Below, in pieces: positions 1-59,993 of a DNA stretch of 64,000 nt. Source of the stretch: Bryoerythrophyllum caledonicum (taxonomy: Eukaryota; Streptophyta; Bryopsida; Pottiales; Pottiaceae); assembly GCA_963971425.1 (NCBI GenBank), contig OZ020515.1:8572291-8636290 (forward strand). Reading direction: 5' to 3'. A program made the translations under genes and the position numbers. The notes under the pieces were generated by a model. That model saw only the letters and a program-made list of their open reading frames with translations. It made no database searches and had not been told where the DNA came from. Every line of letters begins with the position of its first letter. The first letter of the stretch is position 1.

Positions 1-730
1 GGAGTTGGCTCTTGGTTTGCAACACATTAAATCAACCATTTTCATGTAGTTTTTATATCACAAAGTATTTAAGAAAAAAGGTAACAACAATCTACATAAA
101 ATATGAATATATCTTTGAAACCTATGCATTAATTTGAATAATGTAATAGAATGGGATAGAAAAAAAAATACTACTACAATAGTTCAATATTATTAACTAA
201 GGATGGAGATTGAGATAAAATAGGGAGAGTAAAACTAAAATAAATAAATAAACAAGTATGAGGGAGAGTTAGGGAGGGAGGGAGAGACTTGAGGGATTTA
301 TTTTTAGAGTAGTTTATATTTTTAGAATATGTAATAAGGGGAATCTAAAAAGAAAATCAAATGTAAAAAAGAGATGGGGAGGGAGAGTAAAGGCGAGGAA
401 GAGTAAAATAGGGAGAGTAAGGGATTCTTTTAGAGTAGTAAGTTAATTATAGAATGTGTAAGTATTGGAATCACGAGGAGTCTAAAAAATATTAGAATCA
501 AGATTAAAAAAGAGATGGAGATGGAGAAGGAGGGGAGAGTAAAACAAAAATAAGAAAAACAAGTGAGGGAAAGAAGGGAGGGAGAGTAACGGAAAGGGAG
601 ATTCAGCTTTTCCACTAATGTCGTTTTAAATTCAAGTATAATTATTACTCTAATACCCGGTGAACCCGAGTATCTATTATAGTCATATCTAATACCCATG
701 AAACCGGGTATCAATACGTCTTCTCACGCA
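1..730. repeat. purine-rich low-complexity tract
   Basis: AT-rich DNA followed by irregular runs of GGGAGGGAGAGTAA-like sequence on the + strand (about 200-600), then a short block with ACCCGGT/ACCCGAGT-type motifs (650-712). No gene is supported; the ORFs here are short and low in complexity. The order purine tract then CCCGGGTAT-type block is also seen, in inverted orientation, at about 49.86-50.23 kb, so this is probably a diverged member of a dispersed repeat family. Confidence 0.45.
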
Positions 731-1659
731 TGCTCACGACATTGACAATGTCATGATTGTGAAATGGACACGTTGTACATGTACGTCTTTTCAGCTGATT
801 TTTAACTTCACCCACTGTCATCAAGAGCCGTCACACCCTTGAGCCGTCGAGATTGTCCTCTTTGGGTTTTGGGAACTCCAAGAATGAACCATTTCTTGAT
901 TTTTTTGGCTTTTGTCTTCGTAATGTCGAAGGTAGTGAGCGGAAGTGGCGGGAGGGGTTTTCTTTCTTGGTTTGCGGAGTGGGCGTCGACGCATTAGGTT
1001 AGTTTCGTATGCGCTGTGAGAGGCCGTTGGTGTGCGAGGTGAGTGTTGATTTATGTGAGGGACATTGAGCGTGCCGTGGAGAGGTTGTTAACTGGATATG
1101 GACTGAAGGTCAGAGAGTAGGACTGAAAGAGAGCGAATGCGTTAGGAAGAAATTTGAAGAGCGCCTAGGTTCAGTAGCCAAGAGTGAACGACGTTGCGGT
1201 TGAGGGTGGCGTCAACACGAACGACCACGACGTACGGGTGCGCCGATTCGGCAAGTGAAGAGGTATGTAAAGTCTAAAAAATGGCTTTCAGTGAAATTTC
1301 AGTTGAATTTGCACATGACTTCATAGAATCGTCACTGGAGCAGGTGTAGGGTTCGGTAAGCTTCATTAGGGTTCGAGAGAGTCGAATAGTACTGATGTTG
1401 ATAATCGTTTGAGCGAAATAGAAGGGTTTAGGGTTTAGGGTTCTAGTTTTCTGTGCATTCAGTTTCGAAGGGCCGTAATTGAGCAATTTATGCAGTGTTG
1501 AAATTTGTTCCACCGAATTCCTGTACGTCAGAACTGGACCATACATTCTAGGGCATTTGAGAGATTGTATAGTTTGTCGTTCTGAGTTGTTGAATGCTTA
1601 TGTACTGCAGAGTTGTGTATACGCTTTAATCCAGAGCAGTTACTGGAGGAGATTGCGAA
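731..1659. other. stretch without a recognised gene
   Basis: Mixed-composition DNA with G-rich patches such as GGCGGGAGGGG near 945. I see no protein family signature. It may be promoter and leader of the gene that begins near 1660, because GC content rises from about 930 onward. Confidence 0.3.
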
Positions 1660-1709
1660 ATGGCGACTATAGCAGGGACGTGGAATGAGACTGCGTGGGA
1701 TGGAAACCG
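1660..1709 (+). CDS. possible short first exon
   Basis: An ATG at 1660 opens 16 codons (MATIAGTWNETAWDGN plus two bases) that end at a perfect GTAAGT donor at 1710. The phase would let it join the acceptor TTGCAG at 2647, giving RIRGHPHFRLNVDPGNLG before a stop near 2707. That downstream reading differs in frame from the long ORF that follows, so the exon is plausible but unproven. Confidence 0.25.
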
Positions 1710-2441
1710 GTAAGTATACACAATTGAACTGTTTATGCTCAGTCCGGGCACACTTGAATGATTTTGAAAAACCTCAAAAAATGCGTACTAGAATTCCGAT
1801 GTCTGTTTGGCTATAGTCGATTGGTTTTTTGTTGTCCCGTGAACATATTTGTATATCTATTCATGAATATGCAAATGATTTTGGAATTCCATGAATGTTT
1901 GAATGTGTTGTTCCTCACTGAGTCTGTCGAGTCTGGTTCGATTCAATGTATATAGTTTAATCCATGTAGAGTCGTCAAATTTGGCGTTCCATCGAAACAT
2001 TAGCGGATTCTTCTTCTAGTGTGTAAGGTCGAGTTATAACAGAATTGTGTGAGCTCATTTGATAAATGTATTTATGTTCTCAATTATGTAACTTGTTATT
2101 TAAGTATGTCAAACTTCAAGAGTTATACGTCAAACCTCTCTGTAAATGAATGTAAATATTCGAGTCCTGATATGATCCGATTAGTGCTTCGAAGTTCCGT
2201 ACGTGCTTCTGCCGGAGATCTCCGGCTGAAAATACGGAGTTCTAGTAATCAGCCGGAGATCTCCGGATGATGTAGCGATCAGAGGAATATGTAAACCCTA
2301 TACAGGCGTTAGTTATTCTCGAAATCAGCCGGAGATCTCCGGACGTATTGAAACAGTGGAAATTCACGTTGAGGGGTCATTAACCGGAGATCTCCGGTTC
2401 AGGTCAGAAATAGACCCGTCAGAGCAGCCAGGATTCGTTCC

Positions 2442-5400
2442 TTGTCGGATGCACTCGACTTCCCCAAATCAGCCGGAGATCTCCGGGAACTGTCCCCTGC
2501 TGGCACTATGATACAGATTTGGAAGCACGATTCATGGTTTCAACATCTAGGAACTTGTCAGGTGATTATGTTTCGGATTCTTGTTATTGACCAGACAATT
2601 GCATCGATTCTAAACTGCCTGCTTGTTCTTTCAAAATCATCTTGCAGGGATTCGTGGACATCCACACTTCCGACTGAATGTCGACCCGGGAAACTTGGGG
2701 CATTTGTAGAGTATTGGCTCCCTGAGTTTGTCTACAGAGGGATACACAATGTCGGCTACGTATACAATTGCCGAAAGAGCATAACCGAGTGGGGCATCAA
2801 GCTCATAAAAAACCCTGACGGTGCCTGGGAATTCGTCCCTCAACTTCGGATTGGCAAACGGGGTCACCCCGACATTGGACTCCAGGTTCTCGAGTTGCAG
2901 GGTCTTGATGACGAGGTCAGTCTCGTTATCGTCCAGGAGAACGTGGACTCCTCCACCGAGCCACATATATATGGCTTGATCCTAGAATCATCTAAGATTT
3001 CGGATGAGATGGTGGAGACCTGCCAGAGTGAGAACTTTTTATTTGCCCCTCCAACGGGTGATACGTGGTATCCGGAGTACGTGAATGAGCAGTGGAAGTG
3101 GATGGCTGAAGCACAAGAGAAGTCCCGAATGCCCGTTCCTGACGCAACTCCCAATCTGTCTCTGACACCAGCATCGACCTTGGCAAGAAAACGCAAGACC
3201 ACCTTGAAGACTTCGACCCCAGGTTCCTCATCGCGGGCGGAGAGCGGGAAGAAAGCGAAGGCCGATGAGCCTGCCCTCGCGATCGAAAGGTGCCTGAACT
3301 TCACACAGGCTGACCTCACCAAAATGAAGCGGACTGAAGTGGAAGCAATTGGTAAGGTACTCGACGACGCGTTCAAAAACGTTTACATACACAATAATAA
3401 GCCTTTGACAGTAGAAGACCCTGACACGAAGAAGGATGTCGTGAAGCTCGTTCATTTCGATAAGCTGCACCGGGCCCCCCCTGGAGGATTAGTATATAGG
3501 GGCATCCAGAAAGAACGGCTTGAAGGAATTATCAACGCAGTTCGCGCGTCTTCGAAGGCCACGGCACCTGAGATTCACATTCGAGTCCTGCCACTGAAGA
3601 AGAAACCTGAAGGAAGTAAGGTAGAGTTTTTCGCGACCAAGCCGACGAAGGAGGACTGCCTGAGGGACTCGACACACTTTTACATTATCGGAGGTCAGCA
3701 TACTGTGGCGGCGCACAAGGTTCTGTCACACGAATTGCCAGCAACGTGGACGCTCGAAGAGATCTCCCACTTCTCTATCATCCCGGTTTGGACAAAACCG
3801 GACCCCAAAGACATGACCCTGCTACAGCTCTCGCGCGCTCTTAACCAAGATCTGACGGGTTTGCGGAAGGAGCAGAGTTTCACTGAGCAGCTGCAGACGT
3901 GCAGAGTGAAGTGGTTTGAGTTCGGTAAACCAGCCCCCCAACTATATGGTCGTCCTCAATCTGACGCATTCTCGGTAAATATACATTCTCAACCTGAAAA
4001 TATTTTTTACTCCGTGGATGTGCTCTATCCTCACAGCAACCAAACCAATCATCCGGAGATCTCCGGCTGCTTACACCCTGTAATTGTTTTCATTGCAGAC
4101 GTTCCAACGGCAAGTGGTGCCAACGGTTTTTACACACCTCGGTAAAACAGACCCCAAAGACGCGAAGGTCCCACTTCTATTCGAGATGGATGATGCGGTG
4201 GTCCAGAAGTGGATCCGAATCGACAGGCTGTTCGTCACTGGAGTCTTACCAGACTCCAACGGGAAGACGGGGGATCCAGCTAAGCTGAAGCGGAAACCTC
4301 TGGTGCAGAACGACTTCAAGCCTCTTTACAAAATGCGCGCTGAAGACCTAGACTACCTCGCGGAATTAGTGCTCGAGAAGAAGGTCTGTGTGAAGTCCTC
4401 CAAAGCGGCAAACCAGGGTACTATGAAAGGGCAGGCGGAGACTCTCGAAAACGCGGCGAACAGAGAGAAGAGAGTCCGTGCAATGAAGAATGAACTGATG
4501 CTTAAATACAAGTCGCACCCCCTTCCCTCGAAGTCTGCTGACTTCGTCCCATACACGAAGGAGCAGTGGGACGCATTTGCCGAAGAGAAGAATATTGGAA
4601 GGGTCCAGCTCGAGTCCTGGGTCGACGCCGCTAATCACTCTGCCAAGGGTAAAGCTTGGCTTGAGGGTCGACTGAAGGCGATAAACAAGGATACCGACCC
4701 CACTCCAGACTTCCTCGTGTCCATTTGGAGTCAACACATCATTGAAGATGCTGCCGAGGCCATACCCACGGATGATACGTCCCTGTTCGACTCCAAATAC
4801 ACCTGCAGGGTTATGCCTGACAGAGGGGGCGAGATCGCCGAAGTACTTATTATGCCGGACATTCAGCAGTGGCGTAACGTCACTGACCCTCACTTTTACT
4901 TCTTTTTCCTTTACTGCGTTAAAGACGACATATGCCGTGCACAGGTGCTCGATGTGTTTGACTTCAGAACCATTTTCGACCATCTCGAAGTGGACACGAA
5001 GGACGGGCGGACGAGGGTCAGATCACCGTCGGTTCTTATCACTGACGTCGCAGGATTCGTTGAATTAAAGAGGTACATCAGTCTTCGGCAGAGAGAGGCC
5101 AGAGGCAAGGTAAAATTGTGGGCAACGCATGTCGTCTACTACTTCCCACACCCTGGTGATGGATTTCCGGTTCCAGTAATTGGGGTCGAGGAGACAGTAT
5201 ACTGCGTATTCCTGTATGAATACGATTCAAGCGAGACGCCTGCTCAGTCATTCAAGAGGCTCTTCAAAGGCCACCCCGAAAAAATGCCGGCCTTCTTTTC
5301 AGCCGCTCAACATAAAGAAACCATCCAGCGCTGGAGCCTGGAAGCAAACCGGTGTCCCACAGCTGAGGATCTCGGTCCTCGATTCGCTGTTCACGGGATA

Positions 5401-5790
5401 CATCAGAGAGGGTATGGTGGTCGTCAATGTTCATGGAGGACCACATATTACATACCTCGGCTTGGTAAGCAAGACATCCTTCCCAAGCAATCCAATGTCT
5501 AAGATTTCCGGTCCGCATACAGTTATATGAACTCGATATCGCCGTCCTAATTTTTTTTTGGTTTGCAGACTCACGACGCGCGGGTCCTCGAGATTGTGAA
5601 CAGCGAAGATGCCAAAGTAAATGCCGAATCCTGCGCAGAACAAATATTCAAATTCCACTTGAATATCTTAGCTGACGTTACCGACACCGATCCTGAGGAG
5701 TTACTGGAGACTGACATCACTGGGTCGACCCAAGCCGCTGGAGTTCAAACACGGGCTATGTCGAGGATAAATTACACCGGCGAGGTATAA
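2442..5790 (+). CDS. ParB-like domain protein, unrecognised family, probable frameshift
   Basis: Function unknown. The N-terminal exon (open 2442-3974) holds a Lys/Ser-rich linker, then a block resembling ParB/sulfiredoxin-type folds: IIGGQHTVAAHK near 3685-3720, then IIPVWTKPD and LSRALNQDLTGLRKEQ, the order seen in ParB (G-x-x-R/H box, then the DL-x-x-x-E region). Splice sites are clean: donor at 3975, acceptor before 4099 (phase 0), donor at 5465, acceptor before 5569. Exon 3 (THDARVLEIVNSED) is in frame with VVVNVHGGPHITYLGL, which lies one base out of frame with the long exon-2 ORF, so a 1-nt shift is likely near 5360-5385. The first ~65 codons contain a palindrome and may not be coding. 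Exon 3 ends NYTGEV-stop, but GAG|GTATAA could instead be a donor joining 6008. The ParB assignment is by motif only. Confidence 0.5.
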
Positions 5791-6022
5791 CGCCTACGGA
5801 TACTACCTGACCCGGAGATCTCCGGATGTTTATTCCATTCGGATGCCCTCCATTCCTTAGGACTCGTCTTTACCATTGCCATGTTTATTTTTAGTTCCCC
5901 CGGTAGACTCGGACAACTTAGAACCGGAGATCTCCGGGTGTATGATATCGTTTTATTTCGTATTGCGTCTTAATGTAGTCCACACTGACTTCGTCAATGT
6001 GACGCAGACGACTGATGCCACG

Positions 6023-7676
6023 ATGCTTGATGTTGATGTGCGGAATGAACCAAGTTCATCAGCGGTTCCCAATTTTAGACTCGAGTCCTTGGCTACAGCC
6101 GCTCGGATCATCGGTGCGGGCACCCCAATCGACCCATTGCAGGTAAACGTTGATGAACCACATCTTGCTGTCGGGCGTGCCTCGCCTAGTTCAACAAGCG
6201 ACTCTACTTTGGACGGTAGACGGCGTCCCTCTCAAATGGAAACCAGTTCGCATTCCGATAGGCAACGTTCTCCTCCGCCAGATCTGGACGATGACACGGC
6301 AATGTCCGATCGCCTGGAGTTCGACCACACCCACAGAGAACCCGGAGATCTCCCGCTGGACAACCCTTCCACGACGCGTCCTGAAGTGGAGGTTGTGTCC
6401 AAGACTGCCGAGGACCTGACTTTGCGTGACACTGATCACACGATAGATGAGGCATCGGCGCAACAAACATTGCGTGAATTACAGGTTATGAGCCCTCCGC
6501 GCAGCCCTCCACGGAGCCACGGGCAGCTGGCTCAAAAAGAGAAGAAGAAGGCAATCGCGAAGAATCCTGTGCCGAAAGCTCCTCCTCCTCCGCCTACAGT
6601 TCGGACAAGGGCCCAGAAAGATAAGGTGAACAGTTACTTGTCCATCAAACCTTCTTGATTGTTCTCAAGACAGTGCACTCTCTTCAGACCGTGTTCTTAC
6701 CACTACATTACTGGTATTCAGGTGTCGGCCGGATCAACACAGTCGAAGGATGTCGGTGGCAGAAGCCTCGCACAGACTGTTGAAGTCGCTGGTGTAGCTC
6801 AGACTTCTAGGGATACTACACCTACTGTCCCAGGTGCCTAATATGGACATTCATACTTACGTGCCATCATCTATATAGTGCTCATTCTTTCATCCAGCAT
6901 TTCTGGGTTCTGAGTGCGGAACACTTTTATATGTATCTTTGCAATTTCTCTAAGCTGTACAAGTTCCTCATCTCAGCCGACGTACTCGTATTTTGGGTTC
7001 AGGTCTGAAGAAGTTTACGACGATCGTCCGAGAGCCTCCAATCGAGGATCAGGTAACACAACAACGGGTTTATCATGTCGTGTTTGACTTAAATGGAGTT
7101 CTTGTGCACAGGGGGGAATTTAAACAGGGACAACCGAGAGACATCAAAGTAAGGCCTGGTTCCACTGAAATCCTGAACTTCGTGGGAGAGAAGGCTACTG
7201 TCTCATTCTGGAGCAGTGTACTGGAAAAGAATATTGTGGATATCATCAAGGAGTTGCGCAAGAAAGGTGCTACCATTCCGGAAGGCGCCAGAATCCTGAC
7301 ACAGGCCGATTGCACAAAAACATCATATATGCTTCCATCTCAGCCAAAGAAGCCAATTTTCCTAAAGGACCTGACAGTTTATAATAGCAAAGCGTCGCCC
7401 ACATCTCCTAAGGATGTCTTGCTTGTGGACGATACCCCACTAAAGAACATCCTTAACGATCCCTTCAGCGCAGTTCATCCGCCATCATGGACTGGGAATT
7501 CGGGTGAAGCCTGGTTGACCACCATGTTTCTCCCATGGCTCTCCGGACTACTAGCGTCAAATGAGGATGTTCCCGACTTTGTTAGACGGAATCAATTGAA
7601 GTTTGCCAGTGATCCAGTAGACAAAAATTCCACTCAGGCTCGCTCCGTGGTGAAGGGCATAATTTCGGCGCCTTAG
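6023..7676 (+). CDS. disordered N-terminus with FCP1/NIF-type HAD phosphatase domain
   Basis: Three exons join in phase: 6023-6625 (donor AAG|GTGAAC), 6722-6833 and 7003-7676, giving about 462 residues. Residues 1-240 are rich in Ser, Pro, Asp and Arg (SPPRSPPRSHG, KAPPPPPTVRTRAQ) and look disordered. The C-terminal domain carries HAD/CTD-phosphatase motifs: VVFDLNGVLVHR (motif I), VSFWSS (motif II), and DVLLVDDTPLKN (motif III). In motif I the second aspartate of the DxDx(T/V) signature is Asn, so catalysis as in FCP1/SCP phosphatases is doubtful. An in-phase acceptor before 6008 means it may be the 3' part of the upstream ParB-like gene, with two palindromes in the joining intron (5788-6007). 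Confidence 0.6.
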
Positions 7677-8058
7677 AACAATGAAATATACTGGATAGTA
7701 TTAACTCTATGCTTTGTAAATGTTTCGTCATGAATGTCTGTCGGATTTTGACCTTTCAATTTTGAAGACTAATGTTCTTGTCAGTAACGTTATTTGTTGA
7801 GGTCCTTCATTTTATTTGTTATTGTTGGTGTCTCGCCCCCAAACTTCACCCTTAATATCTATGAACTCTATTAAGTTCATATCTATGAAGTTAATATCTA
7901 TGAACTCTTGGTCTGACCATTTCCACTGCAGAACGTTGGTCTGGGAGGGGCACCCGGAGATCTCCGGTCCAGGATGTGACTTCAGTTCCTCCTACCATAT
8001 TTTCTCTTCTTTTCAATGTTCAATTTCTAATTCTATGGTCGTGCCATCTATTTCGCAG

Positions 8059-8511
8059 GTCATAATCATATCTCTCCGTGGTCCTCTCTGCTCGGACGAG
8101 GTCCTTGACTCGGCCAAGTCCCGATCCGCGCAGCTGCCTTCCTTTGATGACACCGCAGATGTTATTCGAATACTACTGCGGTATTTCAATGTCGGGATCT
8201 GGTCTCCTATGCGTCCAGATAGGCTCATGGAGGCGGCCCAAGTGTTATTGCCCCCAGACATCTTATCAGATATTCTTTTTTGCTATGCCAGCAAACAGAC
8301 TCGAAGGCCCAGCTATGTTAGGTTTCTCCACATCTTTAAGAAGGCCTCATTTAATCCTAGAACAAGGCATTATTTGTGGCCAAAATCTGTTGTTGTTGCA
8401 GATCTAGATCCATTCAAGAATCCTAGAAAGGCTATAGTTCATTATCTAACATATGGGAGACACCATACAGGACGGGTAGAGGGCATCTGTAAAGCACTAA
8501 AATTAGAATAG
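8059..8511 (+). CDS. unrecognised exon or small gene in the palindrome locus
   Basis: An acceptor (TTTCGCAG, ending 8058) opens 150 codons to a stop at 8511. The protein begins VIIISLRGPLCSDEVLDSAK and ends VEGICKALKLE, and it includes LLRYFNVGIWSPMRP and KSVVVADLDPFKNPRK. Its composition is that of a folded globular protein, but I recognise no family. A palindrome copy lies 90 bp upstream (7954) and two variants lie downstream (8628, 8800). It could be a further exon of the preceding gene (a possible GTGAAG donor near 7650) or a separate gene. Confidence 0.4.
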   Translation, partial: VIIISLRGPLCSDEVLDSAKSRSAQLPSFDDTADVIRILLRYFNVGIWSPMRPDRLMEAAQVLLPPDILSDILFCYASKQTRRPSYVRFLHIFKKASFNPRTRHYLWPKSVVVADLDPFKNPRKAIVHYLTYGRHHTGRVEGICKALKLE

Positions 8512-8519
8512 TTGATTCG

Positions 8520-9620
8520 ATTCTCCGTAGATTACACGCGCCTCTTATCAACGGCTACCCTTCATATTTTGTATGACACTTTCTTATAATGAAACAGTTT
8601 AGTACTGGACTCTTACTCTGATTTCATCCGGAGATATCCGGTTGCATGTTCTATCAATTGCGAGTAATTTCTGTCCGCATCTCTGTCCCATTTTTTCCTT
8701 CCACATGTTTCCCAACCACACATTTGTGATGTACCGTATGTCCATTAATTTCTGTTTTCAGGACTCGGTTCTTCTTCTGGTTTCCACTTTGATATTCACC
8801 CGGAGATATCCGGCTGCATGTTCCGGACTCACGCATTGTCTAAATTCAAATTTGGTCGCTCTAGCCATTTCTTCCTTCATAAGTGTCATTGGTGATGCAT
8901 TTAATGCTTGGAAAGTACACGAAACTCCTCGGCTTTTACGCTTCACTCTCATTTATGAGGCACATCTCCGGATCTTTCTTTTAGTCCTTAGTCCAGAATT
9001 CACCTCATAGTCCAGAAATAGTTAAATACAGCATCAATGTAGGCCGCGGCCAACAATAATTAACTATAAAGAAAATACTAGCTAATGAACAAGAACACGA
9101 CGCCGGTCACTAAAAATAAACGAATTCCTACAACAGAGCCACAAACAAAGCAAAGACGCCATTTTTCAACTCAGACCAGAAAGAAGGAACAAAACGACGA
9201 ACTACAAGAGAAACTAATGAGAAGCGCAAGAAAATAAATATGCGGCAAGAGAAAGCATCAAACCTCATATTGATTGCGTACAAGTTAGACGCGGGGCGAG
9301 GCGAGAGTTTGGCGATGGCGAATCCTCTACGAGCCAGATTTGATGTAATGCAGAAGACTGATGAAGGAAGCACAAGTAAATTAACCGATCGCGAAAGAAG
9401 AAAGCACGCTCTATACAAGCAAGCAAGGGCGGGCTCGGATTCATGTGCAGCAAGTTGATACCTGCCACCATATCGATGTCCTATCAAGCCAAAACACATT
9501 GATAGATTCCTTGACCTAAGAATCTACAAATTCAACGTTCTTGAAACCCTCAGCTCGACCAACAACACATGCTTCATGAAATACCTCTCTTGTGGTATCA
9601 ACTTGGAAGTCCAAAGCCTT
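8520..9620. other. stretch without a supported gene
   Basis: Holds the two AGATAT palindrome variants and a half-site near 8964. From about 9120 there are overlapping ORFs on both strands, none with a recognisable family. A + strand ORF at 9240-9458 (KLTDRERRKHALYKQ) has a charged helical look but no support beyond that. Confidence 0.3.
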
Positions 9621-32602: not shown

Positions 32603-35600
32603 AGGTCGAATGCCCCAAAACCAGCACCGCCCCCATAGGCGTACCGTAGCCCTCCCCAGAAGCACCACTAGTGATGTCAGAATTCCGTGATATGTGGATC
32701 TGGGCGCCTGATTTGGGTTATCAACCCTAGTGGAGTACTGTGTCATTGGAATTCAATATGGGTGGCGGCTGAAGCGGTTTTAGAATGCCTCATATATTGT
32801 AAAGAACACTTGTAAGTTGGTGGAATTAGGAAACATATGAAAGTGGTTTCCCGATTTGGACGTCACGTTGTGTGGTTGGTGTTATCACATATTAATACAT
32901 GCCGTTGTATTGCTTTCACATTCCAATCGGGGCTATGTGTACACTGTTGCATGACAAAATTTCACACATTCCATGACAGAAATATCAACCACTCCTTACA
33001 ATATAATGAGCGTTCAAGTGTTTAATTTCATTGAGAGCGGTGGCATTCGACCTTAGCGTGAGTGAGCAAGGACTCAGGTTCGGTCAATTCCTGCAGTGCA
33101 ACCTCGGCATCATGTCTGCCATAGACTTAGCTACCGATGAGGGCTTCACCTACTCTGAAGGAGATGACTATGAGGATCGTGCATGTGAGGTGGGCACTAA
33201 TGATGAGTACAAGGATGGATTACAATCGAGCAGTAGTGACGACGAAGAACGCCGCAGCACCCAGCCGGTGGACTACAACAACCTACAGCTGGAGCAGGAG
33301 CATCGCAGTCGACGCCGGAGGGAGTGCCGCGGGGCGTGGCCTGCACCAACGGAGGTGGCGTCCAACATTCCAGGCGCCGTTGATCATCGCTCGGGCTTCG
33401 TCGAGGGTCACAGGGGGGCGGCATTGGGACAAAGCGGTGACTGCAGGGGTCGAGATGTACAAGGCCGTGGGCAGCAGAGTTCGAGACGCTCACATGGAGC
33501 TGCGATGGGAGGAGACTCCGCTTGTCGGCAGGGGTGTCGAGCCACTGTGGTCGGCATCTCCTTGTTCACAAATCGTGCTCGTGGTGGGGGGAGAATTCGG
33601 AGGGGCTTACATGATCCTACGCAGCAATCTCAGCCAACTTCGGAGGGGTTAAATTCTGGAAGAGAGGGAGTTGAATTACGGACAGATGCGCGATTTCCAA
33701 GACAACATCGACAGCGGAAGAACGGGAACTGGACAGATGAAGACTTGAGACGTGCTATGGCAGCAGTAAACAATGAGGAGACCATGAAGAAAGCAGCTCA
33801 AGAAAATAACATACCTTACTCGTTGTTCCGTGATCATTGCTATGGGAAGACAAGGAGTAGGAGGCGTGGAGTTGAGGGTGTTCTCACGCCTGAAGAAGAG
33901 AATCAGATTGTTGATTACCTTGTGAAGATGTGCGACATGGGTTTCGGCTTATCACCTAGTGCACTAAAGGTGAAAGTTTATGAGATCACGAAAAACAGAT
34001 GGACACCATTTAGGGACGGGATTCCTGGTGGAGGTTGGATGCGGTGGTTCAGGCATCGTCACCCGAAACTTACTGTCAGAGCTGCTCAAGGGCTGGAGGG
34101 TGCACGAGCCCGTGCTCTATGCCCTGAGAATGTGCAATCTCTATACAGGAATTTAGAATGCCTATACAGCTTGCACAATTACCCACCCGAGCGCATCTGG
34201 AACTGCGACGAGTCTGGCGCCCAAGCAGGTAATTTGCACGCTTTTTCCTATGAATTGCACAGAAATGCATGATAAGTGAAATCAAGAAGGGGTAGACTTA
34301 CCGAGAGCCACTCATGCTCTATGCAATTGCTGATTGAATGCATGCATGTACTCATGATGGTCACCGAACATGCTGCATGCTCAAATCTCACTGATCGCTC
34401 CGAAGGTGCTCATTGACCGCTGAACCTGCATGTAAACATGAGTGCTGTTAGTGAGGTCTACTGTTACTGGTTGCTGCAGAAGTTGTGAATGTGCCGCATC
34501 TATTCATTCAGCGATATACTAACCTTGAGCTACTGACTGCACTGATATGATGTAGGCAAAAGTGGAGGCGGAATGGTGATAGCAAAGACTGGAGCGAAGC
34601 GAGTGCAATCAATAGTACCAAATCAGAGAGAATGGCTCTCAGTTTTGGTATGCGTAAATGCTGCGGGTCAGTCAATTCCATCTTTCTACATTTTTAGAGG
34701 ACGACGCTTTAGATAGAATTACATCATGCATTGTGATCAAGGGGCAACAATGGCAATGCAACCACGAGCGTGGATGACGTCTTACCTTTTTAGTGCCTCT
34801 ATATCTCATTTCATTGCATCGATTAGACGTCATAGTGTTATATCTCCAGAGCAACGCCATCTGTTAATCCTGGATGGCCACAACTCACACGTTACATTAG
34901 AGGTAGCACGACTAGCTAAGAATGTAGGACTTGATCTAATCAGCCTTCCATCTCACACTTCTCATGCGCTACAACCGCTTGACGTATCTGTCTTTAAAAC
35001 CATTCAAACAATTTTTCAGAGAATATAGGGACTATTGGACGTCACGTAACATAGACCAATCAGCGACAAAAGAAATCTTGGCCCACTGGGTGTGAGGAAA
35101 GCTCTCTCGATTTCCAACATTCGTAGTGGATTCCGAGGCACTGGGATTTACCCTCTAAACAGTCAAGCAGTAGACGCCCACATGACCCCATCAGAGGTTT
35201 ACAGGTCGGCTGGAGGAGGTGACCCCGTGGAGGCACCATCAGCAGTCGAAGGTGAATTACTTGTACAACAACAAGGACAGGAGGAGGCGAGAGGAGATCG
35301 ACAACTGCCGGGAGAGGAAGAGGGGATGAACATACCTGCGGGACCGTCGGCTGGCGGAAAACCCCCTTCCAGCGAGCGCGACATCGCGGCGGACTTCAGC
35401 CACGAACCAGACTCCGCCACAGAGCAGTACTTCGTCGGTGTGGATCCCTCGGACCAGGCTGCGGAGAGCGACGTCGCTCAGTTGGACACGGCAGCTCCAG
35501 AGCCGGAGTCAATCACCCAATTCCTGCAGCTGCCTACGTTCACTCCGAGAGCAACTTCGGGGCGTCGGGATCCGATCGTGGATTTTGCAAAATCTGTGAT

Positions 35601-36977
35601 ACTCATGAGCACAGAGTATGAGGAGGCTGCAGTCGGAATCATAAACGCAAGAGAAGATGTTGTAAAGGAAAAGGAGAGGCAAAAAGAACAACGTGAGGAA
35701 TCAAAGAAACGGAAAATGGCAGAGAGAGAGGAAGCAATGGCTCGAAGAGCAACATCACGTGAGGAGAATCAACGCATGAAGGATTTGAAGGTGGCTGAGA
35801 GGGCCGAATCTCAGGCCAGAAGAGCGGCCGCGCGGGAGGAAGCTGCGCGGGCCAAAGCGGAACGTGCCTACTAGCTGGCCATGGTGAGAGCGGAGAAGGC
35901 AACTGAGCGGTCATGTAGAGCCGAAGAGCAACGAAGTAGTCGTGCACGTAGGGCGTCGGAGACTGTGGAAGTACGACAAAACGACAAGGAAGGGCTTGGG
36001 GATCCGGGCCGCTAGGCAGGGGAGTCTTCGGAGGGGGCGCCCTTACCTCGGGGGCAGCATCTGACCACCCCGTCCTCACAATTCTCTGCGTTTGCACCGC
36101 AGGTGCATGCCCCTCCTTACCACCCATCCCTCACTCCACAACCTCTCCATGCACACTACTTCTTCACTTCGCCTTCAAGCGGCATCCCCTCGCTCTCTCA
36201 ATTTGCCGTAAGTCCACATTCTATGAGGCCCATTACACAAATCCTCAACCCATTCCAAGTCCCTGCAATTCCACGAAGCCATCCCTGGAACACATCCATG
36301 CAACGAGAAGGAGGTCATTTGGAGGAGGGCCTTGGAGGGAGCCGTTGCAACGTCCCTATATGGCGACCCAGTTTAGGACCACCGCGCGGGAGAGAGGGGC
36401 CTAGGAGAGCGCGGGCCAGGCGGACGAAAGGATCGAGTCAGGGAGGAGGCACGCACAACACACCCACAGTGCCAGAGCGGGAGAGGGTAAAATGACGCGC
36501 GGGAGAGGGCGACTGGGCCTCGGATCTGAGAACCAGCTGGAGCGGGAACGCGAGCTAGAACGATCACTTGGCATCACACCGCGCTTTGGGTCTAAGAGGC
36601 CGTGGACACGCTTTACAGCCTGATTATTTGCGGACCACACCGTAGCCTACACACAGGATAGAGTCACACGTGACGCTTATTTTCAGTGGTAGACTCTGCA
36701 GTTTCAACAACCATAGCAAAATGGTTCTGAGTCACTTTAGACACCATAGGATGTTCAACACGGTTTGGACTTAGGAGAACCTACTGATCAGATTTGGATC
36801 ACGAGGTACTTTTGCCTTTGAAAATTTGTATCTATTTCAGTATTGAGTGTTAAATTTTGAAAAAAATTGCATCCTATGAGAAAACTTCTTCCCTATATGG
36901 GAAAAATATACTCCAAAAATAAGCCTCCAAAAAATCCCTCAAAATGCTTAAGTTGGTGGTTTTAGGGCATTCGACCC
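32603..36977 (+). mobile_element. pogo/Tigger-type DNA transposon, 4.4 kb
   Basis: The left end AGGTCGAATGCCCCAAAACC and the right end (complement reads GGGTCGAATGCCCTAAAACC) form TIRs of about 27 bp, flanked by a TA duplication (32601-02, 36978-79). It encodes a CENP-B-like transposase (33.0-35.9 kb) that is now broken. The right-hand 900 bp is GC-rich and then AT-rich; its final 160 bp resembles the MITE at 12.8 kb. Confidence 0.85.
33031..35874 (+). pseudogene. pogo/Tigger-like transposase, disrupted
   Basis: Exon 1 (33031-34228) has an acidic and Arg/Gly-rich N-terminus, a psq-type helix-turn-helix (NWTDEDLRRAMAAVNNEETM, near 33727), a CENP-B/Tc5-type DNA-binding block (LTPEEENQIVDYLVKMCDMG) and the start of the DDE_1 domain (IWNCDESGAQAG, first Asp). 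A GT-AG intron (34229-34555) joins in phase to exon 2 (KSGGGMVIAKTGAKRVQSIV, LLILDGHNSHVT with the second Asp, SHALQPLDVSVFK with the third). Damage: a TAG at 34714, a one-base shift in an A run near 34995, and another shift near 35094. A C-terminal coiled coil (KEKERQKEQREESKKRKMAE) follows to 35874. No longer able to make a full transposase. Confidence 0.85.
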
Positions 36978-59048: not shown

Positions 59049-59993
59049 TCACCATCTAGTGTTGCCACCTTTCGCTTCTACAACAACTTTCAAGCGATCA
59101 GGCATACTTGAAATAAGGCAAAAAAGCTCGTCTTTAGAGACTTCATTCCATAGTGTTGTAACTGTCTGAACCATCTCCTCACTACTTCTTGGTCTATTGT
59201 AGTGACGTAACTTATCCTTCACAATTCTCCAAACATTTTCAATAGGATTCAAGTCCGGCGAATTAGGAGGCCACTCAAATTTTTTTATCCCGTGTGCCTC
59301 TCTCCAACTAGTGGCAAGTTTTCCTCGATGAACTGGAGCTCCGTCTTCCATAAGCGTTATCCTTTCTCGTATATCATGCATGAAATACAAGCCACTCAAC
59401 GTTCCTTTATACACGGTCCTTACAAAATGTTCTGATGTGCGCTCCCCTTGTGGCAAGATGACCAAAGGACTCTTGAAAAAGCGAGAGAAGGCACTCCAAA
59501 CCATAACCAAGGTGCGACCAGATTTGAAAGTTGGTGCCAAACATGCAGAAATTTTTTTCTCGTGAACTTTCCTCCAAACTCTAATTTGGCGATAATATTT
59601 ACCAACTTCAAAGCTAGACTCATCTGTCCAGATCACATGTTTCCACTCATGAACAGACCAATGTTTATATCGGTGCGCAAAAGCAAGGCGTTTCTTTCTA
59701 TGTGTAGCATTGAGAAATGCTTTTTTACGAGCTATACGGTTGGCATAACCAATACTACAGATATACCTTCGGATTGTGTTCCGGTGAACACCAAATATTG
59801 ACCCCGGTTGTCCCAAAGTTTGACGACATTCACAAGAGATGTAACGAGCTAACAATCGAACGTCTCGGTTAGTCAACTTACGTGTGATTGTCATCGATTT
59901 CTTCCTCTCACATGTGCCCGTACCTTTCCATTTCTTCAAAACCGTAGAAACAGTTGAAGGAGAAACCTCGAAACAGTTTGCTACATCCTTCAT
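59049..59993 (-). CDS. Tc1-like DD34E transposase, intact
   Basis: 314 codons, uninterrupted. An N-terminal helix-turn-helix (MKDVANCFEVSPSTVSTVLK) is followed by a second DNA-binding block (RRYICSIGYANRIARKKAFL) typical of Tc1 enzymes. Catalytic triad: VIWTDESSFEV (first Asp), LMEDGAPVHR (second Asp), and WPPNSPDLNPIENVW (Glu). Exactly 34 residues separate the second Asp from the Glu, which is the Tc1 spacing and not the DD39D of typical plant mariner-like elements. A stop lies a few codons upstream of the chosen ATG, supporting the start. Confidence 0.93.
   Translation of the reverse strand: MKDVANCFEVSPSTVSTVLKKWKGTGTCERKKSMTITRKLTNRDVRLLARYISCECRQTLGQPGSIFGVHRNTIRRYICSIGYANRIARKKAFLNATHRKKRLAFAHRYKHWSVHEWKHVIWTDESSFEVGKYYRQIRVWRKVHEKKISACLAPTFKSGRTLVMVWSAFSRFFKSPLVILPQGERTSEHFVRTVYKGTLSGLYFMHDIRERITLMEDGAPVHRGKLATSWREAHGIKKFEWPPNSPDLNPIENVWRIVKDKLRHYNRPRSSEEMVQTVTTLWNEVSKDELFCLISSMPDRLKVVVEAKGGNTRW

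Follow-up and report, generated by a model that had tools for sequence, protein, structure and literature searches.

A conserved 14-bp palindrome spread along a large multi-gene DNA transposon with a DUF7869 protein in Bryoerythrophyllum caledonicum

The transposon and its genes

The DNA analyzed here (the window) is a 64-kb stretch of the Bryoerythrophyllum caledonicum genome. Its first part belongs to a DNA transposon copy, the remainder of which lies at C2:8564770-8572290 (L016:2480-10000). The features in the window were as follows.

1..9034, minus strand (strand of the presumed transposase gene): window part of the 16,555-bp transposon copy, from alignment with other copies
2212..2486, no strand: cluster of five palindromes (2212, 2253, 2329, 2384, 2473), all exact
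2649..3974, plus strand: second-gene exon, 442 codons (dN/dS 0.24-0.25)
4053..4066, no strand: exact palindrome, within an inferred GT..AG intron (3975-4098) that preserves the reading frame; intron read by eye
4099..5464, 3' end inferred, plus strand: next exon of the second gene, p4 (dN/dS 0.20-0.25, computed on 4102-5499)
5812..5825, no strand: exact palindrome, taken as noncoding; two changes in copy E4
5924..5937, no strand: exact palindrome close to where the p5 ORF, which is unconstrained, starts; abolished by substitutions in copy E2
6342..6355, no strand: one-mismatch site within the p5 ORF (window scan, alignment, dN/dS)
7005..7673, plus strand: NIF/FCP1-type phosphatase-like exon (PF03031, E = 3.4e-13 on ORF 6993-7676)
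7954..7967, no strand: exact palindrome between the NIF-like and p7 exons (window scan, alignment)
8068..8511, plus strand: small exon p7, constrained (dN/dS 0-0.27)
8628..8641, plus strand: subterminal variant CCGGAGATATCCGG, second from the end (window scan, alignment, genome count)
8800..8813, plus strand: subterminal variant CCGGAGATATCCGG, outermost, 172 bp from its neighbor (window scan, alignment, genome count)
9009..9034, no strand: 26-bp terminal inverted repeat AGTCCAGAAATAGTTAAATACAGCAT, a perfect match to the far end of the copy
9035..9038, no strand: 4-bp target-site duplication CAAT, with its partner at L016:2476-2479

The exact inverted repeats of the window copy were located at C2:8564770-8564795 and C2:8581299-8581324. 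All three copies read at both ends had 4-bp target-site duplications: CAAT (window), TAGG (E1) and ACAA (E2). Other aligned copies were found at C1:1561627-1579396, C1:3739139-3756014 and C1:6769358-6786901. The four-copy alignment consisted of the window copy (W), E1, E2 and E4; E3 was incomplete, and the left end of E4 was unaligned. Separate copies were surrounded by different flanking DNA. The element was dispersed and multi-copy, as revealed by 68 scored close matches to the DUF7869 exon, out of 4515 candidates, on many contigs. Noncoding divergence in a 32-copy set was 1.56%. The element is large and was apparently mobile in the recent past. The assembly also gave 58 matches to chlorophyll-binding protein genes and, together with an LEA_2 gene, these are indicative of a plant genome.

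The main exon encoded a DUF7869 (PF25273) domain (E = 2.6e-45, 154.8 bits, cut-off 26), the only Pfam-A match of this protein at E ≤ 10. Based on its position, its conservation and the repeats, the protein is the presumed transposase, and its exon was under constraint (dN/dS 0.13-0.19). A first look at the assembly gave 3614 candidate DUF7869 matches, and all 150 that were scored exceeded the cut-off. The literature searched contained no paper with the word DUF7869.

Further genes under constraint were found on the opposite strand. For the second-gene exon at 2649-3974, searches of Pfam, NCBIfam, PHROG and PDB gave no significant match. This exon contains GGQHTVAAHK, a putative resemblance to a ParB-like motif. 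A ParB-like reading of the second gene, prompted by this resemblance, was rejected, with no significant match in Pfam, NCBIfam, PHROGs or PDB. Single-sequence fold prediction of the candidate domain gave a mean pLDDT of 33.8. Constraint on the NIF/FCP1-like exon was weak (dN/dS 0.46-0.70), and profile search of the p7 exon detected no known domain.

Palindromes in the window and in the genome

Nine exact copies of the 14-bp palindrome were found in the 64-kb window, starting at positions 2212, 2253, 2329, 2384, 2473, 4053, 5812, 5924 and 7954. Three copies had one mismatch, at 6342 (CCGGAGATCTCCCG), 8628 and 8800 (each CCGGAGATATCCGG). The initial annotation had given the same counts. The only other matches with up to three mismatches were two 3-mismatch sites, and the resulting 14 matches compare with a mean of 0.95 and a maximum of 3 in shuffled controls. 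In a scan of the window for 12-mers with four or more occurrences inside a 12-kb span, excluding those of low complexity, all listed words belonged to the palindrome motif. The sites cluster at 2.2-8.8 kb because the element ends at 9034/9035.

The 437-Mb assembly contained 2718 exact palindromes, versus 3 for a reversed-pattern control, and 4841 with at most one mismatch, versus 58. The array had been described as confined to one locus, which therefore holds for the window only. Fifty of the 2718 exact sites were placed relative to the element, and all 50 fell in copies of this one dispersed element. Membership in a longer ordinary repeat had been named as grounds against the array; the sites do belong to a dispersed repeat that is long, yet they form a separate, selectively kept motif there.

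Each of the four aligned copies had 20-22 sites, at homologous positions. They were spread over the length of the element, with a central 4 kb free of any. None of 22 sites fell in the five best-supported exons, which were our choice (P = 8e-5); with two further ORFs added, 4 of 23 did (P = 0.002). One site lay in a constrained stretch of exon in the presumed transposase gene, and ORF p5 contained one or two. Some sites were lost or decayed in single copies.

A tiny mobile palindrome seeded into one gene had also been proposed. A perfect palindrome in high copy number would suit such a MITE-like unit, had it inserted repeatedly into a single gene or element. However, the sites occupy homologous positions across diverged copies, and the 50 listed genomic sites are all within the element. 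The three site differences inspected were due to substitutions, an indel of ~92 bp and, in E4, a larger insertion; none showed a clean 14-bp insertion or a target duplication. No tandem array was found at the sites, and their flanks differ from each other. The homologous positions, the indel patterns and the lack of a target duplication at the inspected differences argue against this candidate, leaving it next to no probability. Nothing points to a recombination site, another of the initial suggestions.

Two site clusters lay near the inferred 5' parts of divergent genes, at 2212-2486 in the window and at L016 ~8018-8227. Under our gene model, the right-facing gene probably carries the first cluster in its leader or first intron. 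The five sites of this cluster were exact in both E1 and E2, and E4 had three exact sites and two with a single G>A change. Such clusters would fit ordinary enhancers or silencers of the element genes on which a host transcription factor acts. Such a factor, with a near-invariant 14-20 bp site, should, however, have some sites outside the elements, and all 50 listed ones were inside. Promoter function is also a poor fit for the outermost sites and those in 3' regions, and we consider host regulation unlikely.

Conservation of the sites and their extended dyad

Among the four aligned copies, the palindrome cores diverged by 1-4% and the flanks by 10-15%; for the closest pair, the values were 1.7 vs 3.0%. 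Compared with E4, core differences numbered 8/280 in E1, 10/280 in W and 9/294 in E2, and flank differences 225/1610, 229/1610 and 274/1862, respectively. Ten of 20 sites were invariant in all four copies; of 123 windows in the flanks, 15 were (Fisher P = 0.0003). In the transposase region of 32 copies, six sites differed at 0.86% of bases, versus 1.56% for other noncoding DNA.

The copies are young, as the latter divergence indicates, and gene conversion or recent ancestry alone might keep the sites alike without any function. Between subfamilies, however, the flanks had diverged much more than the cores, conversion tracts of 14 bp are not expected, and a position-specific variant (see below) was not converted to the major form. 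Homogenization without function is thus very unlikely. In recent copies, CG-context decay was 1.56% at the sites and 1.64% in noncoding DNA; the sites are therefore not protected from deamination.

The dyad reached beyond the core to ~20 bp, CAnCCGGAGATCTCCGGnTG, with A at -2 in 80% and C at -3 in 56%. RNA hairpins in introns, acting in splicing or small-RNA priming, were considered as an alternative. The core has the potential to form a stem of 5 bp closed by a 4-base loop, and three segments of 23-26 nt (one composite) gave -8.8 to -16.1 kcal/mol. Several sites also fall within introns of the inferred gene model, and the five-base arms are intact in the AGATAT variant (see below). Pairing just outside the core, however, occurred at 7 of 22 sites versus a shuffle mean of 7.4, so the stem is not lengthened by covariation. 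The subterminal sites lie outside mapped exons, and the 14 core changes counted among the four copies were all C>T or G>A, which is decay-like and not pair-keeping. A hairpin function is highly improbable. The strong core conservation, the extended dyad and the mostly noncoding placement instead support a protein-binding array, in line with the initial annotation.

A one-base variant at the element ends

The two outermost sites of each end carried a one-base variant with an AGATAT center, in all four aligned copies. Genome-wide, this variant occurred 663 times (control 0) among 2123 one-mismatch sites. At one end its copies formed pairs 172 bp apart; at the opposite end the pairs were inverted and 237/238 bp apart. 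In L049, both right-end variants were intact at a surrounding identity of 82-90%. The earlier remark that the AGATAT center suggests selection holds up, given this position at the ends and the genome-wide count.

The fixed variant and fixed spacing of these sites suit end recognition, and the presumed transposase gene is conserved. The palindromes may thus be transposase-binding repeats needed only for assembly of the transposition complex, like the subterminal repeats of En/Spm or Ac. Known subterminal arrays generally extend no more than a few hundred bases inward from the element ends. Here, 16-18 further sites per copy, intronic and intergenic and likewise conserved, extend over ~16 kb except for the central 4 kb, and we regard a role restricted to complex assembly as rather unlikely.

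Other palindromes in the genome

In a 5-kb sample beside another DUF7869 ORF (L047, L048), copies of GAGGGGTCGAGGCCTCGACCCCTC were found in L047, within a diverged direct repeat. The 14-mer GTCGAGGCCTCGAC occurred 378 times genome-wide (control 0). Among the 50 places listed (C1-C3), it often formed close pairs, with another such pair at a distance of 4-15 kb, and it may therefore be part of some element, of LTR type or otherwise. In a comparison by eye, no DUF7869 match listed for these contigs came within 15 kb of any of the 50 places. CTCCTCGGTACCGAGGAG had 128 copies genome-wide (control 0).

Proposed explanation

We conclude that the palindromes are probably a cis-acting part of a large multi-gene DNA transposon, bound along its length by a predicted dimeric protein. 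A homodimeric DNA-binding protein would dock on each dyad. Its likeliest source would be the element itself, through either an upstream portion of the presumed transposase or a constrained product of the opposite-strand gene; CCGGAGATCTCCGG is the candidate target of such an element-encoded protein. The full-length array could let the protein recognize the DNA of its own family and counteract host DNA methylation there, so that this DNA stays open or expressed, and the subterminal variants could serve end recognition in transposition. By analogy, a VANC-like role in self-recognition and anti-silencing is plausible, though short of probable. The next most likely case, which we put forward with less confidence, is a purely transcriptional or transposition-complex role of the same protein; it overlaps the host-regulation and transposase-binding alternatives above. 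The probabilities of the alternatives overlap that of the preferred explanation and do not sum to one. The site-free central 4 kb, the sites in ORFs, the loss of sites in single copies, the CG decay of sites at the noncoding level and the lack of a significant database match for the candidate domain count against the preferred explanation. So does the finding that GTCGAGGCCTCGAC, sought as a possible motif of related DUF7869 families, had no listed DUF7869 match near the places compared on C1-C3.

More speculatively, the DUF7869 transposon might have evolved self-recognition independently. An element-encoded dimer of no known family would bind ~20 copies of a 20-bp dyad and override silencing, and a one-base half-site change would mark the ends for cleavage or synapsis. 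The other large palindromes in the genome could then be equivalents in rival families. We offer this as a tentative possibility.

If self-recognition were confirmed, a family-specific motif distributed over the length of another, unrelated type of transposon would make the generality and convergence of this strategy testable. The palindrome is a defined bait for finding the binding protein and a ready marker for the large DUF7869 element. The end-specific one-base variant allows internal sites to be compared cleanly with those at the ends.

Comparison with known systems

Bacterial parS sites, bound by ParB, are perfect palindromes of 14-16 bp present in several copies. The element resembles them in its multi-copy perfect palindrome and in the faintly ParB-like motif of the second gene, but the Pfam, NCBIfam, PHROG and PDB searches showed no relation to ParB. 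Subterminal transposase-binding repeats are known from En/Spm, with its TNPA motif, and from Ac/Ds. They share with the element a short conserved motif in multiple copies, some close to the ends. Unlike in these systems, most sites here are internal, over ~16 kb, and a separate variant is reserved for the ends.

Sola1 transposons produce 4-bp target duplications. A table of PMC9033089 lists this superfamily for Physcomitrella. By description, Sola1 and the palindrome element share the duplication length and a plant host.

The VANDAL transposons are Mutator-like, with the Mutator-type transposase VANA. Their inverted repeats are degenerate, whereas the palindrome element has a DUF7869 protein, 26-bp inverted repeats and 4-bp duplications, and its presumed transposase has no Mutator-type match (PF25273 only, in Pfam-A). 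According to PMC5735166 and PMC10398659, VANDAL21 and VANDAL6 of Arabidopsis achieve sequence-specific anti-silencing by VANC proteins and are, like the element studied here, multi-copy, multi-gene plant DNA transposons. In the same sources, the VANDAL motifs are 8-9 bp long, in one orientation and grown by tandem repetition, whereas the palindrome is a perfect dyad of 14-20 bp with unrelated flanks. The two systems are alike, within those accounts and the 50 genomic sites sampled here, in having a short motif that is dense in the noncoding and intronic DNA of the element and rarer elsewhere.

Distribution of the palindrome

Nine exact and three one-mismatch copies of the 14-bp palindrome CCGGAGATCTCCGG were found between positions 2212 and 8813 of the window, placed as the initial annotation had claimed. 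Its statement that full copies are absent from the rest of the 64 kb also held, the best match there having three mismatches. Shuffled controls of the 64-kb window gave about one match at ≤3 mismatches (maximum three), and a scan of the window for repeated 12-mers returned only words of the palindrome motif.

The window (C2:8572291-8636290) is part of a 437-Mb assembly, whose 58 matches to chlorophyll-binding protein genes identify the genome as photosynthetic. Exact copies of CCGGAGATCTCCGG numbered 2718 genome-wide, versus 3 for the reversed control; at ≤1 mismatch, the count proposed in the initial annotation, there were 4841 versus 58. The first 50 of the 2718 exact sites (C1:1.56-6.79 Mb) all lay inside four repeat copies on contig C1, E1 (16 sites), E2 (16), E3 (7, incomplete) and E4 (11), whose sequences were compared with the window.

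A large DNA transposon carries the sites

The window copy of the repeat, W, spans 16,555 bp (C2:8564770-8581324; window 1-9034 plus positions 2480-10000 of L016, the stretch to its left) and ends in perfect 26-bp inverted repeats. Target duplications were readable in three copies, with CAAT (W), TAGG (E1) and ACAA (E2) on both flanks; the left terminal 74 bp of E4 were unaligned, and E3 was incomplete. The exact 26-mer occurred 67 times genome-wide. Both ends were exact in six copies of 16.5-17.4 kb, and a seventh pair was 26 kb apart. C1 (65 Mb, 15% of the assembly) held 25 of the 67 exact terminal repeats and 25 of the 68 scored transposase-exon matches, with about 10 expected in each case; it may be a sex chromosome or exceptionally repeat-rich. 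At the far end of W, and at this element end only, a near-perfect hairpin (ATTTCTGGACTTTGCAAAGTCCAGAAAT, L016:2480-2530) adjoins the inverted repeat.

Exon borders of the element genes were inferred from DNA rather than RNA. A DUF7869 domain (E=2.6e-45) lies in the largest exon, which has 650 codons on the minus strand; the product of this exon is the presumed transposase, with putative catalysis. The 68 matches to the exon that were scored (from 4515 candidates) were 94-100% identical, and 32 of them were stop-free. A DUF7869 family search gave 3614 candidates, and all 150 scored exceeded the cut-off. The ORF upstream of the transposase exon had a dN/dS of 0.13-0.47 at residues 61-519 and 1.41 before them; its middle part appears to belong to the presumed transposase gene.

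On the opposite strand, a second gene has two long constrained exons (dN/dS 0.20-0.25); fold prediction of its domain gave no usable model. This strand also carries a small exon under constraint (0-0.27), an exon that resembles NIF-type phosphatases and is under weak constraint (PF03031, 0.46-0.70) and an unconstrained ORF, p5 (0.87-1.47). Synonymous divergence between W and E4 was 0.26-0.30 in the second gene (window 2649-5499) and 0.11-0.15 in the other element genes; this inequality suggests that the copies are mosaics.

The sites are conserved

In the alignment of W, E1, E2 and E4, one copy or more matched the palindrome with ≤1 mismatch at 24 positions; each copy had 20-22 such sites. Cores were compared with nearby 14-column windows at 22 positions, 20 or 21 of them gap-free per pair; alignment positions 3116, 6641 and 16834 were excluded. 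In five of the six copy pairs, cores differed by 0.010-0.036 and flanks by 0.098-0.147; for the closest pair, W-E1, the values were 0.017 and 0.030. Of 20 sites, ten were invariant across the four copies; of 123 flank windows, 15 were (Fisher P=0.0003). All 14 base changes in gap-free cores were C>T or G>A. Outside this comparison, site 3116 was lost in E2 through several changes, and site 14279 had a 1-bp deletion in E4.

In the transposase region, compared across 32 copies, differences affected 0.86% of bases (23/2687) in six sites and 1.56% in other noncoding DNA. Five of these sites had changes other than C>T/G>A at just 2 of 2239 bases. Escape of the sites from methylation found no support, since CG-context transitions were equally frequent in sites (1.56%) and other noncoding DNA (1.64%). 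We read these patterns as probable selection on the sites in a still-jumping lineage, plus ordinary methylation-type decay within single copies.

A fixed variant marks the element ends

In W, E1, E2 and E4, the outermost two sites at each end carry a one-base change in the centre (CCGGAGATATCCGG or its complement), with an additional C>T in one such site of E1. The variant occurred 663 times genome-wide (control, 0) and made up nearly one third of the 2123 one-mismatch sites. Among 100 places listed, 56 had a variant partner within 400 bp; 12 pairs shared one orientation at a spacing of 172 bp, 10 were inverted at 237/238 bp and six had other distances, and many end-variant groups were 16-19 kb apart. 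Both variants were also intact at a right end that has diverged further (L049, 82-90% identity with the four copies). These observations make the variant a constant mark of the element ends and not random decay.

Dyad shape and placement

Conservation extended beyond the 14 bp to an A at -2 (80%), a C at -3 (56%) and their mirror images, giving CAnCCGGAGATCTCCGGnTG, with position -1 free in between. Conserved dyads that include a free spacer base would be the footprint expected of a dimeric protein. RNA of the sites is also able to fold, but a hairpin at the palindrome is spoken against by the -1/+1 bases, which lacked covariation (7 of 22 sites paired; shuffle mean 7.4).

None of 22 sites fell inside the five best-supported exons, which we picked ourselves (P 8e-5). 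With the upstream transposase-gene ORF and p5 added, four of 23 sites were inside an ORF (P 0.002): one in a clearly constrained part of the presumed transposase gene, two at the unconstrained edges of the upstream ORF and one in p5. Site 5924 overlaps the start of a longer version of p5. Sites occupied inferred introns, intergenic stretches and the vicinity of both element ends; the central ~4 kb held none in the four aligned copies. In this site-free centre, polypurine GGGAGGGAGAGTAA units (window ~148-575 and the corresponding middle of other copies) varied in copy number among copies, with a 423-bp tandem period in E3.

Other palindromes and neighbouring elements

A second long palindrome, GAGGGGTCGAGGCCTCGACCCCTC, was present in another stretch (L047, C9:16372400-16374899) at about 937-960, 2152-2175 and 2228-2251. 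Its 14-bp core, GTCGAGGCCTCGAC, occurred 378 times genome-wide (control, 0); among the places listed, close pairs that recur at a distance of 4-15 kb were frequent. A third palindrome array, around CTCCTCGGTACCGAGGAG (128 exact copies; control, 0), adjoins E4 outside the element copy (L015:5709-7660, C1:6788708-6790659). Two further features lie in the window:

33031-35874, plus strand: ORFs whose Tc5/psq-type DNA-binding matches are weak and below threshold; they may represent a pogo-like element
59049-59993, minus strand: open Tc1/mariner-type transposase ORF, 314 aa, with DDE_3 and HTH_Tnp_Tc3_2 matches

Proposed function and known systems

The best-supported reading of the sequence data is that the palindromes serve, as an array, for the binding of a dimeric protein, which the element itself most likely encodes. 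Such a protein would bind the dyads along the element, and, to judge from the end variant, this protein or a relative might join in end recognition. The outcome could be anti-silencing, regulation or assembly of a transposition complex.

The term DUF7869 was not found in the literature searched. Sola1 elements, like the present element, make 4-bp duplications. A review lists Sola1 for Physcomitrella in a table (PMC9033089). In Arabidopsis, VANC proteins lift the silencing of VANDAL elements and bind short motifs in their noncoding DNA (PMC5735166; PMC10398659). Compared with VANDALs, our element is similar in its full-length, mostly noncoding and family-restricted site layout; it differs in its perfect dyad, its lack of tandem growth and its transposase type. 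Self-recognition through a motif array, or a transposase-site array, is already known in principle, and would here occur in a different kind of element.
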